Below are positions 20,187 to 32,432 of a DNA stretch of 47,936 nucleotides, one piece after another. Both the position numbers and the translations under genes were made by a program. Under the pieces are notes generated by a model. It did no database searches, was not told the origin of the DNA, and worked only from the letters and a program-made list of their open reading frames with translations. The first letter of the stretch is position 1. Each line of letters starts with the position of its first letter. Source of the DNA: Oerskovia douganii (GTDB lineage: Bacteria; Actinomycetota; Actinomycetes; Actinomycetales; Cellulomonadaceae); NCBI RefSeq assembly GCF_015142735.1, contig NZ_JACSPN010000013.1, positions 7,066 through 55,001 on the forward strand, read 5' to 3'.

Positions 20187-20243
20187 TCCGGGTGCTCGCG
20201 GGGGCCTCGTCGGGTCGCGAGGAAACTCGTCGAAAGAAGTTCG

Positions 20244-20282
20244 TTAAATAAGTTGTGCCCCCTTCCGAGGGCGGCATATGGT
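20244..20282 (+). promoter_or_regulatory. whiB7 promoter with AT-rich activator site
   Basis: An AT-rich TTAAATAA (20244-20251) abuts -35 TTGTGC (20253-20258); an 18-bp spacer leads to -10 TATGGT (20277-20282). WhiB7 proteins are known to bind an AT-rich patch just upstream of the -35 with their AT-hook while contacting sigma-A, so this layout fits autoactivation. Start of transcription expected near 20289. Confidence 0.75.
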
Positions 20283-20350
20283 TCAGGAGTCCTTGTAGGA
20301 GAGACGCGCGCCGAGAGGCGGGCGTTCGACGGAGATGGGAGGTGGGCTTG

Positions 20351-20476
20351 GTGAAGCAGATCCTGACGGCGAGCCCGACACATGTGTCGGCCGATCCGAT
20401 CAACCGCGCACGGCGCGGCGGATCCCTCGTCATCCGCCCCGTTCCCGACTCCGCACTGAGGACGTCCCCGGTCTAG
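20351..20476 (+). CDS. whiB7 leader upstream ORF, 41 codons
   Basis: Starts with GTG 20351, GGAGGT about 8 nt upstream, ends with TAG 20474-20476. Peptide begins MKQILTASPTHVSADP and ends DSALRTSPV; it resembles nothing I know, as expected for a control peptide. Its stop lies 20 nt before a strong intrinsic terminator and its 3' half contains the competing strand (20447-20454). A 16-bp perfect palindrome at 20375-20390 falls in codons 9-14. Its role is most likely to report ribosome activity to the polymerase making whiB7 mRNA. No protein function is proposed. Confidence 0.7.
   Translation: MKQILTASPTHVSADPINRARRGGSLVIRPVPDSALRTSPV
20375..20390 (+). promoter_or_regulatory. Perfect palindrome inside whiB7 uORF
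   Basis: CCGACACATGTGTCGG, 16 bp with no loop; as RNA it gives a short early hairpin that could act as a pause signal for polymerase or an obstacle to ribosomes, analogous to the first hairpin of classical attenuators. Confidence 0.45.
20447..20454 (+). promoter_or_regulatory. Antiterminator strand in whiB7 leader
   Basis: GACTCCGC is the exact complement of GCGGAGTC at 20502-20509, which is the main part of the 5' arm of the terminator. Pairing (8 bp, no mismatch) excludes the terminator hairpin. It lies in the uORF near codons 33-35, so a translating ribosome would hide it and a stalled or absent ribosome would expose it. Confidence 0.6.
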
Positions 20477-20496
20477 CACCGGCGCACACCCTTCTC

Positions 20497-20537
20497 AGGC
20501 CGCGGAGTCCACCTGGACCCGCGGCCTTCGTGTTTCT
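20497..20537 (+). terminator. Intrinsic terminator / attenuator of whiB7
   Basis: AGGCCGCGG (20497-20505) pairs with CCGCGGCCT (20519-20527); after a bulged A, GTCC (20507-20510) pairs with GGAC (20515-20518); loop ACCT. The 13-bp stem is followed by TCGTGTTTCT. It lies inside the leader, 113 nt before the whiB7 start, so it must be a conditional stop. Confidence 0.85.
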
Positions 20538-20649
20538 CCGAATGCGATCGTCTTCCCGGTCAGCCGTCCATCACCCCGGACGCGAGCACCAACTGCGGGT
20601 CCTGTGACAAAGAAGTTCACACGCAATCAGGACATCACTGGAGGACATC

Positions 20650-21087
20650 GTGCGGCTCACCGCGCTGCTCGACAACATCACTGCCCAGGGCGGATCCGGG
20701 CCCTGGACTCCCCACCAACCCCTCACCACCCCTCTCGGTTCATCGGACGCCGCGGAGTTCGACCGGCTGCTCGCCGGGATCCTTCCCTGCCGCACGAACG
20801 ACCCCGAGCTCTGGTTCGCCGAGCAGTCGACGCAGGTCGAGCAGGCCAAGGCCCTGTGCCAGGGCTGCCCGCTCGTGGCCGGCTGCCTGGCGGGCGCGAT
20901 CGAGCGTCAGGAGCCCTGGGGCGTCTGGGGCGGCGAGGTCTTCGTCGACGGAGCCGTCGTCGCCCGCAAGCGTGGGCGTGGTCGGCCGAGCAAGGCCGAG
21001 GTCCTCGCCCGCCAGGCGGAGGAGCAGGCCGCCCGTGCGGCGGCCGGCGAGCCGGAGGCCTCGGTCTCCGCGTCATCGGCGGCCTGA
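20650..21087 (+). CDS. whiB7: WhiB7 iron-sulfur transcriptional activator
   Basis: 145 residues. Master activator of intrinsic antibiotic resistance in Actinobacteria (Rv3197A): binds a 4Fe-4S cluster, joins sigma-A region 4 and turns on efflux, ribosome protection and drug-modifying genes. Seen: four cluster Cys (47, 70, 73, 79; C-x22-C-x2-C-x5-C), the WhiB7-type turn EPWGVWGGE (88-96) and the AT-hook KRGRGRPSK (107-115) that separates WhiB7 from other WhiB proteins. GTG 20650 has GGAGG 5 nt upstream. It follows uvrD2 as in Mycobacterium and has a 360-nt leader with uORF and attenuator. Its 3' end overlaps the opposite-strand ThiF-like gene by 15 bp. Confidence 0.95.
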   Translation: MRLTALLDNITAQGGSGPWTPHQPLTTPLGSSDAAEFDRLLAGILPCRTNDPELWFAEQSTQVEQAKALCQGCPLVAGCLAGAIERQEPWGVWGGEVFVDGAVVARKRGRGRPSKAEVLARQAEEQAARAAAGEPEASVSASSAA

Positions 21088-22167
21088 CGTGGCTGCCGCG
21101 ACCGTCAGGTCCGAGCACCCGCACCGCGGGTGGCTCACCACCTCGCGCAGCCTCGGTACGGCATCGGGAACAGCGATCTCGATGCAGGCCGTGGCTGCGC
21201 GGGGTGTCAGCCCGTCCAGGTGCGCGAGCACCTGGCTCGCGGTGATCGCCGCGCCGACCGCTGCCAGCGTGGTCTCCTCGACGTCGAGCGGCTCCCGCTG
21301 AGGTTCCCGGAGCTGGTCCGCGAGCTGCGGCCACTGCGGGTCGAGGTCGGCGCGATGCCCCTCGACGCACCGGACGCACGGCGTCCGCCCTGGTCGGACG
21401 AACGGTCCGACCACCATGTCAGCCTCTCGCACCACGACCGGTAGGTGCGGGGTGCCGTCCCCCGTGAGCCGCCCGTACCGCTCGGGTCGTAGTGCACGGT
21501 GCTCGACGACGACCACCACGTCGGGCCGAGCAGGGTGGGGGGACACCCAGCGCGAGCTCTCGACCGTCCGGCACCGCACCTCGGGAGCGAGGTCCGCCAG
21601 CAGACGTACCGCGGACTCGCCGCGCGGCCGCCCCACGTCGCGGGCGCGATAGCCGCCGAGCCCGACGTCCGTCGCCTGGACCGGTGCGGCGTCGTCGAGC
21701 AGGAGCGTGCCCACGCCCGCCGTGGCGAGCACGACCGCCACCCCCGCCCCCAACCGTCCCAGCCCCTCGATCCCGACGCTCGCCCGTGCGCGGAGCGTGA
21801 GCGTCGCCCGCCCGTCGCCGTCGGGGCGCAGGAGCGCGAGCGTCGGGGCGTCGGCCCCGCCTCGCGCGGTGGCGGTGATGGCGTGGGAGTCCCGCCCGGG
21901 CGGCCCGACGACGAGGAGCGCCTCGTGCAGGTGCCGCACGATGGCCTGCTGGCGCCCGGGCGAGATGCCGTACCGGGGCGGCGGGGCGTGCAGGAGCGGG
22001 CGGGCGGAACGGTGGTGGTCGAGGAGCCACGTCGCCTCGTGCTCGCCGAGCCCGCTCAGGATCACGCTCCACCTCGTGTCCGTGCCGTACTGCAGCTCGC
22101 CCGGTCCGCGGCGGAGCACGACAGTGCCGGGACGCAGGCGGACGGGAAAGGTGGGCGGGTCGTCCAT
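21073..22167 (-). CDS. ThiF/E1-like protein, TOMM C-protein type
   Basis: 364 residues. N-terminal about 90 residues (VRLRPGTVVLRRGPGELQYG ... LLDHHRS) look like the winged-helix, leader-binding region of thiazole/oxazole peptide (TOMM) partner proteins. Then a Rossmann core GLGRLGAGVAVVLATAGVGTLLLDD aligned to MoeB/ThiF. Zinc Cys pairs survive (TPCVRC and PRCGC), and GRTPCVRCVEGHRADLDPQWP is the TOMM-type signature. MoeB catalytic positions look lost: the NLxRQ segment reads DVGLGGY, GQPK reads GRPR, and DxxDN is absent, so adenylation is doubtful. No YcaO gene is in the window. GAGGAG sits 5 nt before ATG 22167. Probably the counterpart of Rv3196. Function unknown. Confidence 0.65.
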   Translation of the reverse strand: MDDPPTFPVRLRPGTVVLRRGPGELQYGTDTRWSVILSGLGEHEATWLLDHHRSARPLLHAPPPRYGISPGRQQAIVRHLHEALLVVGPPGRDSHAITATARGGADAPTLALLRPDGDGRATLTLRARASVGIEGLGRLGAGVAVVLATAGVGTLLLDDAAPVQATDVGLGGYRARDVGRPRGESAVRLLADLAPEVRCRTVESSRWVSPHPARPDVVVVVEHRALRPERYGRLTGDGTPHLPVVVREADMVVGPFVRPGRTPCVRCVEGHRADLDPQWPQLADQLREPQREPLDVEETTLAAVGAAITASQVLAHLDGLTPRAATACIEIAVPDAVPRLREVVSHPRCGCSDLTVAAATSGRR

Positions 22168-22180
22168 GGGCTCTCCTCGG

Positions 22181-22199
22181 CTGGTCGCTGTCCGACCAG
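22181..22199. promoter_or_regulatory. Inverted repeat upstream of ThiF-like gene
   Basis: CTGGTCG and CGACCAG with a 5-nt centre, ending 14 bp before the start codon on the minus strand. Either a small operator or a leader hairpin next to the ribosome binding site. Confidence 0.35.
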
Positions 22200-22340
22200 T
22201 CTGGAGCGCGGTGGTCCGTCGCGACGGTTCTCCACAGCACCGTGATCCGTCGCCAGGACTTGACCAGTTCTCGACGATTTCTCGCACGCATGTGGGGCAA
22301 ATCTCGGCGTGGTCTATGGCATATGTCACGTCGACCCACT

Positions 22341-32358: not shown

Positions 32359-32432
32359 CGCGGGGTGGAGCAGCTCGGTAGCTCGCTGGGCTCATAACCC
32401 AGAGGTCGCAGGTTCAAATCCTGCCCCCGCTA
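32359..32432 (+). tRNA. Initiator tRNA-fMet (CAT)
   Basis: 74 nt without encoded CCA. Initiator marks: C1 faces T72 unpaired at the acceptor end, and three G-C pairs (GGG/CCC) sit in the anticodon stem around loop CTCATAA. D arm GAGC/GCTC, T arm GCAGG-TTCAAAT-CCTGC. Following bases are CTC, so CCA is added after transcription. Confidence 0.97.

Follow-up and report, generated by a model that had tools for sequence, protein, structure and literature searches.

The window, which is the whole 47,936-nucleotide stretch of Oerskovia douganii DNA that was analysed, carries at 20650-21087 a gene for a 145-residue protein that matches Pfam Whib at 4.6e-15; an NCBIfam search of the product returned no match. 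Coordinates are those of the window and refer to the forward strand unless stated otherwise. The gene is the single strong match in the O. douganii genome (the runner-up scores 3.8e-9), and the closest named WhiB7 proteins, those of O. merdavium and O. enterophila, stand at 96% across residues 1-119. The protein contains RGRGRPSK, which we take to be an AT-hook-like motif. Upstream lies uvrD, recognised by Pfam, with a glutaredoxin gene past it, an order that presumably matches the mycobacterial whiB7 locus. Together with the relatives in the family, these features indicate that the gene is the WhiB7/WblC ortholog, and we refer to it as whiB7 (wblC). A Shine-Dalgarno sequence, GGAGGA, precedes it at 20640-20645. 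The gene for a ThiF-domain protein on the reverse strand (21076-22329) is convergent with whiB7.

The leader begins with a predicted promoter (20244-20282) made up of an AT-rich box, TTAAATAAG (20244-20252), a -35-like TTGTGC (20253-20258) and a -10-like TATGGT (20277-20282), which would place the transcription start near 20289. TTGTGC was found in 15 of 17 aligned Oerskovia and Cellulosimicrobium-type leaders, as was CATATGGT. A sigma-70 scan reported no promoter in the whiB7 leader. The AT-rich box just 5' of the -35, a candidate WhiB7 box for autoregulation, resembles the WblC site that the available text of PMC7157823 quotes as GAAAWY; compared by eye, four of six positions fit.

An upstream open reading frame (uORF) of 41 codons plus a TAG stop occupies 20351-20476, starting with GTG and preceded by the Shine-Dalgarno sequence GGGAGGT (20337-20343), which is similar in aligned relatives. 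The duplex of this sequence with the anti-Shine-Dalgarno is worth -11.5 kcal/mol, as calculated for a TTG start. The start may be either TTG at 20348 or GTG at 20351; two other Oerskovia leaders, L009 and L010, have ATG in the place of the TTG. Homologous uORFs are present in Oerskovia and Cellulosimicrobium.

Twenty nucleotides past the uORF stop begins a hairpin (20497-20527) of the form AGGCCGCGGAGTCC-ACCT-GGACCCGCGGCCT; its stem has 13 pairs and a single bulge, A20506, and TCGTGTTTCT follows it. Its stability is -26.4 kcal/mol, which none of 200 shuffles reached, and its 5' arm includes GCGGAGTC (20502-20509). The U-rich tail, TCGTGTTTCTCCG (20528-20540), is interrupted, and similar interrupted tails occur in relatives. 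A plain terminator scan of the leader did not report the hairpin at 20497-20527, probably because of the bulge. These elements place a predicted Rho-independent terminator between the uORF and whiB7. The first-pass annotation had listed the uORF, the terminator and an 8-nt complement between them, and all three were located on the sequence at the coordinates it gave.

Leaders of WhiB7 relatives

At E<=1e-15, 143 of 150 genomes of the family have a WhiB7 relative, as do 123 of 248 genomes of the order, some members of the family being among the latter. The 281 loci collected, 80 of them from a further WhiB7 search, gave 278 leaders once three paralog loci had been left out. These reduced to 246 distinct leaders, of which 231 have a terminator candidate and 189 of those a recognisable 5' arm; 186 of the 189 have a uORF, and 160 were retained with an antiterminator element scoring at least 14. 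The division into family, order and other leaders was set by locus number and is rough, such that one family member (L250) is counted as other. The element was chosen by its complementarity to the arm, which biases it toward pairing; the arm permutation, the pair counts on the MAFFT alignment and the folding-gain test described below avoid this bias.

The commonest 5' arm, GGCCGCGGAGTCC, is carried by 124 of the 189 leaders. The A that is bulged in the O. douganii terminator (A20506) is paired in the alternative structure described below, and an A occupies the corresponding place in 188 of 189 arms, under a search pattern that permitted A, G or C.

Pairing between the uORF and the terminator arm

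Within the uORF, GACTCCGC (20447-20454, the codons of D-S-A) is exactly complementary to GCGGAGTC in the terminator arm (20502-20509). As a match in a single sequence this is weak evidence: when the uORF was shuffled with its dinucleotides preserved, 1136 of 20000 sequences contained some exact 8-nt complement of the arm, and so did 5542 of 20000 that were recoded synonymously. Testing the proximal region and the arm as a two-strand duplex also gave a weak signal: the mean z was -1.0, and no more than 5 of 100 shuffles did as well in 16 of 134 family leaders, compared with 14 and 9 of the 134 in two farther regions. Adding the 5' arm to the preceding 80 nt brought a gain in folding energy that, in 122 of 152 family leaders, no more than 3 of 60 shuffles equalled. 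The same test was passed by 21 of 50 order leaders outside the family and by 12 of 29 other named actinobacteria.

The decisive evidence for the predicted pairing is covariation in relatives. Compensatory changes between 20447-20454 and 20502-20509 had been named as a test of the pairing in the first-pass annotation, and such changes were found. Arm GTGGAGTC occurs with uORF strand GACTCCAC (L088, L099, L105), ACGGAGTC with GACTCCGT (L044), GCGGAGCC with GGCTCCGC (L050, L055, L166, L172, L174), GCGGATCC with GGATCCGC (L161), GCGGACCC with GGGTCCGC (L171), and CGGAACC with GGTTCCG (L053, L059, L265). There are counter-examples: L223, L234 and L235 combine arm GTGGAGTC with an unchanged GACTCCGC, leaving a G-U pair and an incomplete compensation.

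Nor is the fit uniform among the 65 leaders whose arm is not the major one: 41 pair more favourably with their own arm than with the major one, one pairs equally well with both and 23 pair less well with their own. When arms were permuted among leaders, the observed total duplex energy was reached in 0 of 2000 permutations, for all 189 leaders and for the 65 alike, a test that does not take out relatedness among leaders. When 133 leaders left after thinning were aligned by MAFFT with no reference to pairing, the eight pairs of the base helix proved standard in 119/132, 116/133, 117/133, 99/133, 124/133, 133/133, 110/128 and 108/112 rows. One of these pairs is A-U in 83 of the 133 leaders, G-C in 25 and G-U in 8; the next is C-G in 95, U-A in 13 and U-G in 7.

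Some Cellulosimicrobium-type leaders, L011 among them, carry an additional arm-complementary sequence, GGACTCCGTC, early in the uORF. We considered it as a second, upstream copy of the antiterminator strand (94-97 nt 5' of the arm) and rejected it: the distal region has a mean z of -0.22, no more than 5 of 100 shuffles do as well in 14 of 134 leaders, and the match is not significant family-wide.

The complete antiterminator stem-loop

Folding suggests that the 8-bp helix, which had been put forward as the antiterminator, forms only the base of a larger structure, a single 63-nt stem-loop (20447-20509) whose apical loop contains the stop codon of the uORF. Above the base, a middle stem of 7 bp joins CTGAGGA (20456-20462) to 20492-20498 in the free minimum-energy fold. 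An apical hairpin (20467-20484), predicted by folding and by covariation of the model helix, holds the stop codon TAG (20474-20476) in a 5-nt loop. The predicted fold of 20447-20509 has an energy of about -29 kcal/mol (z -3.0), and 2 of 200 shuffles were equally low. Taken alone, the O. douganii interior is ordinary (z -1.0), and its apical 18 nt were matched by 10 of 200 shuffles.

Relatives fold in a similar manner. Folded freely, the segment from element to arm adopts the antiterminator as its lowest-energy structure in 77 of the 79 family leaders kept after thinning, O. douganii included. In 152 of 160 leaders the stop codon is spanned by four or more pairs, and the interior folds better than its own shuffles with a mean z of -2.1, 106 of the 160 leaders lying at or below 5 of 100. 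In joint folds the base helix forms in 157 of 160 leaders; the stop codon falls in the apical loop in 124 of the 160, and the base helix is formed in 122 of those.

A covariance model of the antiterminator structure (R1) was built from 17 leaders. The structure-guided alignment A3, used for the subsequent comparisons, leans towards the structure. A search with R1 returned 102 matches in 100 sources, consisting of 91 sense matches and 11 antisense echoes. In the resulting alignment, which was fitted to the structure and so favours it, pairs form in 90.1% of cells and 16 of 20 pairs vary on both sides. Its covariation score of 0.186 compares with 0.105 (sd 0.004) for shuffles, none of 500 of which scored as high; slid partners gave at most 0.041. 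Leaving out the 11 antisense rows gives 89.3% and again 16 of 20; the count of cells is then 113, where shuffles give 35.7 and none of 500 came as high. In the apical model helix, both sides change at all six pairs. RNAalifold gave a different picture on a MAFFT alignment (A1) of family leaders with element score >=14 and stop distances of 16, 19, 20, 22 or 25, thinned to 79: the apical hairpin was absent, and of eight pairs, six in the base helix and two others, four were changed on both sides. The absence is attributable to the apical hairpins varying in length and register.

The sole good match of R1 in the O. douganii genome is the whiB7 leader (20443-20510, E 2.5e-6), the next match having E 0.48. 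Under stricter filters, 12 of 296 genomes of the class had a match at E<=0.001, two in the family (O. douganii being one) and 10 outside it, and in 12 of 12 a WhiB gene lies 3' of the match. At the gathering score of Rfam release 15 the leader falls in no family, and the whole window yields only a tRNA (32359-32432); below threshold, two matches lie within 20200-20700, with E 0.11 and 0.8.

Position, frame and peptide of the uORF

With the frame picked by Shine-Dalgarno strength, 186 of 189 leaders have a uORF that overlaps the antiterminator element and ends ahead of the arm region. This count is modest evidence because open frames are common in GC-rich DNA. The distance from element to stop codon is 4, 10, 13, 16, 19, 22, 25, 28 or 31 in 139 of 160 leaders, all in a single reading phase, and the commonest value is 19 (77 leaders). 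Such values are as expected if length changes must preserve the frame.

The peptide behaves differently from its frame. Pairwise codon differences 5' of the element number 10 synonymous and 23 nonsynonymous among five Oerskovia leaders, and 58 synonymous and 186 nonsynonymous among 11 Cellulosimicrobium-type leaders. Ratios of this order are about those expected without constraint. The peptides vary widely between genera. The uORF thus retains its position and frame, and its peptide is not conserved. The residues D-S-A near the uORF end do recur among relatives, in codons that constitute the antiterminator strand. We found no conserved stalling peptide of the erm type among the uORFs of relatives. 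The O. douganii uORF has no single-residue run and, judging by eye, none is shared among the relatives' printed uORFs.

The uORF also contains a perfect 16-nt palindrome, CCGACACATGTGTCGG (20375-20390), for which a role in pausing had been suggested. The palindrome is real and can form a 6-bp hairpin. Of the 246 distinct leaders, 6 have the exact sequence and 7 have the stem, all of them from Oerskovia; the seventh (L006) has an altered centre and retains the stem. Since the stem is confined to the genus and 11 of 200 shuffles are equally stable, its candidacy as a pause element is unsupported.

Ribosome position and folding

To relate the two folds to translation, we assumed that a ribosome occludes 15 nt upstream and 17 nt downstream of the first P-site base, and sampled every second codon. 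With the RNA ending at 20512, the probability of the base helix is 0.74 without a ribosome and 0.74-1.0 with a ribosome at sampled codons 1-27. It is zero at sampled codons 29-39 and 0.14 at codon 41, where the stop codon is in the A site; the apical hairpin has zero probability with the ribosome at codon 41. In the states that permit the base helix, the apical hairpin pairs of O. douganii reach only 0.42-0.57. On these modelled probabilities, early stalls would permit antitermination, and late or finished translation would not.

It had been proposed that the translating ribosome acts by covering 20447-20454. The geometry does not bear this out for a ribosome at the stop codon, as the strand ends 19 nt before the stop, outside a terminating ribosome at about 20456-20488.

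At equilibrium the terminator prevails without a ribosome once about 20524-20526 is exposed, for RNA from 20400, and in the full leader its probability is at least 0.77 by 20523 with no ribosome or with one at any sampled position. Equilibrium alone thus favours termination, and the switch must therefore be kinetic, with the antiterminator forming first. The barrier to refolding of the antiterminator is about 10 kcal/mol, corresponding to seconds under an assumed rate constant, a time that is probably long compared with the passage of polymerase over the U tract. Masking the ribosome region left the barrier unchanged (10.1). Because the masked barrier came out equal, the proposal that a ribosome at the stop codon prevents the base helix is left to footprint geometry.

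Discussion

The most probable reading of the leader, to which we assign a probability of roughly 0.87, is that it belongs to the whiB7/wblC kind of transcription attenuator, controlled by translation. An attenuator whose antiterminator pairs the uORF with the terminator's 5' arm had been deduced from the O. douganii sequence, and covariation, arm permutation and folding now support it. Comparison and computation show the two folds, that each precludes the other, and that pairing, frame and stop position are conserved. Several points count against the attenuator: the imperfect U tail, the terminator's win at equilibrium, the barrier that masking leaves unchanged, the modest apical-hairpin probability in O. 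douganii, the weak results of the 8-nt and duplex tests, the smaller share of leaders outside the family that pass the folding-gain test, and the arms that fit their own leaders poorly or without full compensation.

Such an attenuator would work as follows. Polymerase would transcribe the leader from about 20289 and a ribosome would initiate on the uORF. If translation kept pace, the ribosome would pass 20447-20454 and stop at 20474-20476, in what would be the apical loop. A terminating ribosome there (taken as about 20456-20488) would melt the upper stem from inside the loop and hold the stem-loop open, so that the terminator (20497-20527) could form and the transcript would end near 20537. 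If a drug or an amino-acid shortage kept the ribosome within roughly codons 1-27, or if initiation failed, the antiterminator would fold as soon as 20509 emerged, capture the terminator's 5' arm (20502-20509) and let polymerase continue into whiB7. The ribosome footprints, the kinetics, termination in cells and induction by drugs enter this scheme as suppositions.

Two alternatives place the sensor in what the uORF encodes. An arrest-peptide attenuator, in which a specific nascent peptide stalls the ribosome together with a drug in an erm-like manner, would suit a gene that, in the published accounts available, responds to ribosome drugs. The recurrence of D-S-A near the uORF end also favours it, but the codons of these residues double as the antiterminator strand. 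The divergence of the peptides between genera and the synonymous and nonsynonymous counts (10 and 23, 58 and 186), close to those expected without constraint, make this explanation highly unlikely. In an amino-acid leader of the trp or ilvB type, runs of particular codons would sense one amino acid. Its attenuator anatomy is similar, and whiB7/wblC reportedly responds to amino-acid starvation as well, but a single-residue run is missing from the O. douganii uORF and none is shared, by eye, in the printed uORFs of relatives; we consider it extremely unlikely.

It could also be supposed that the terminator is constitutive or Rho-linked, that control lies at the promoter through WhiB7 autoregulation, and that the pairing is a by-product of GC-rich coding. 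The frequency of 8-nt matches in shuffles (1136 of 20000) and the conserved promoter with its AT-rich box are in keeping with this idea. Chance pairing would not be expected to produce the compensatory changes seen in the base and apical helices relative to slid and shuffled controls, nor an R1 match ahead of a WhiB gene in 12 of 12 class genomes, 10 of them outside the family, and we hold this possibility to be extremely improbable too.

The attenuator mechanism is already known for whiB7/wblC. The uORF attenuators of Mycobacterium and Streptomyces are attributed, in the papers that cite them, to Burian and Thompson 2018 and to Lee, Lee and Roe 2022. According to the portions available of PMC11550727, PMC9618640 and PMC13393426, translation of the uORF permits the terminator and impaired translation permits the antiterminator, a hairpin that PMC10727445, in its available part, describes as built from overlapping uORF and terminator sequences. 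The accessible text of Dinan et al. 2014 (PMC4128351) reports that in M. marinum and M. bovis transcription drops beyond the whiB7 uORF, and that of PMC13236596 terms whiB7 a well-characterised case. The O. douganii leader shares with this system the ortholog, the uORF, an intervening Rho-independent terminator, an antiterminator of overlapping sequences and the same logic (PMC10727445, PMC9618640, PMC11550727 and PMC13393426, as far as their accessible text goes); its base sequence and uORF peptide differ. One Mycobacterium leader (L263) likewise places its stop codon in the apical loop when folded, and another (L261) scored 11, short of the element cut-off. The helix pair had been thought undescribed; the mechanism is published for whiB7/wblC, in the available part of PMC10727445, and the exact pair in this genus may still be new. 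What the present data add is evidence at the level of individual pairs and the placement of the stop codon in an apical loop.

Other leaders resemble this one in part. In the ilvB-II motif of Corynebacterium, the ilvB1 leader of M. tuberculosis and trp, a uORF is likewise present and the position of the ribosome decides between terminator and antiterminator (PMC10272879, available portion). Those leaders carry codons of the regulated amino acid, whereas the O. douganii uORF has no run and no peptide conservation. The ABC-F uORFs of are5sc and tiaA, and toiL-topAI, share the principle that a drug stall on a short uORF switches expression (PMC12421871 and PMC12121999, in their available parts), but the genes are unrelated, and the are5sc and tiaA uORFs have few codons and stall at the start codon. 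Drug-induced stalling within the whiB7 uORF had not been tested, according to the accessible text of PMC12121999.

A broader reading is that whiB7 attenuators across Actinomycetes sense whether a ribosome has reached a stop codon placed in the apical loop, the uORF acting as a peptide-independent timer of about 27 codons, and that this latch is undescribed as a general whiB7 design. We regard this as tentative and rather unlikely, since the available text of PMC13236596 already describes, for ilvB1, a ribosome at the uORF stop that masks about 26 nt and prevents the antiterminator, so that reading of a stop codon is not new in general. For whiB7, a stop codon in the apical loop was not described in the accessible parts of the open full-text literature on whiB7 and uORF antiterminators, a scope that leaves most subscription papers outside; the accessible full-text literature on Cellulomonas with whiB7 offered nothing beyond a genome review. 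If the reading were true, the latch would explain the induction of whiB7 by many unrelated ribosome drugs and by starvation. It turns the sensing of many drugs by one uORF into a testable claim, that arrival at the stop is read and not the peptide. The comparisons also supply pair-by-pair evidence for the whiB7 switch across a bacterial family, and the R1 model could seed a family entry.

Some of the loci collected deserve separate mention. Two genera, g7 (13 of 13 listed genomes) and g15 (4 of 4), have two WhiB7-like matches per genome at E<=1e-15. The assembly of L205 (QAPD01000006.1), titled Sphaerisporangium cinnabarinum ATCC 31213, encodes a Cellulosimicrobium-type WhiB7 (81% to O. douganii) and has a uORF match identical to that of L020; it is probably mislabelled. 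A metagenome-assembled genome titled Candidatus Fonsibacter lacus carries a WhiB gene (L276, RFXN01000013.1), and because WhiB is, to our knowledge, actinobacterial, that contig is probably misbinned.
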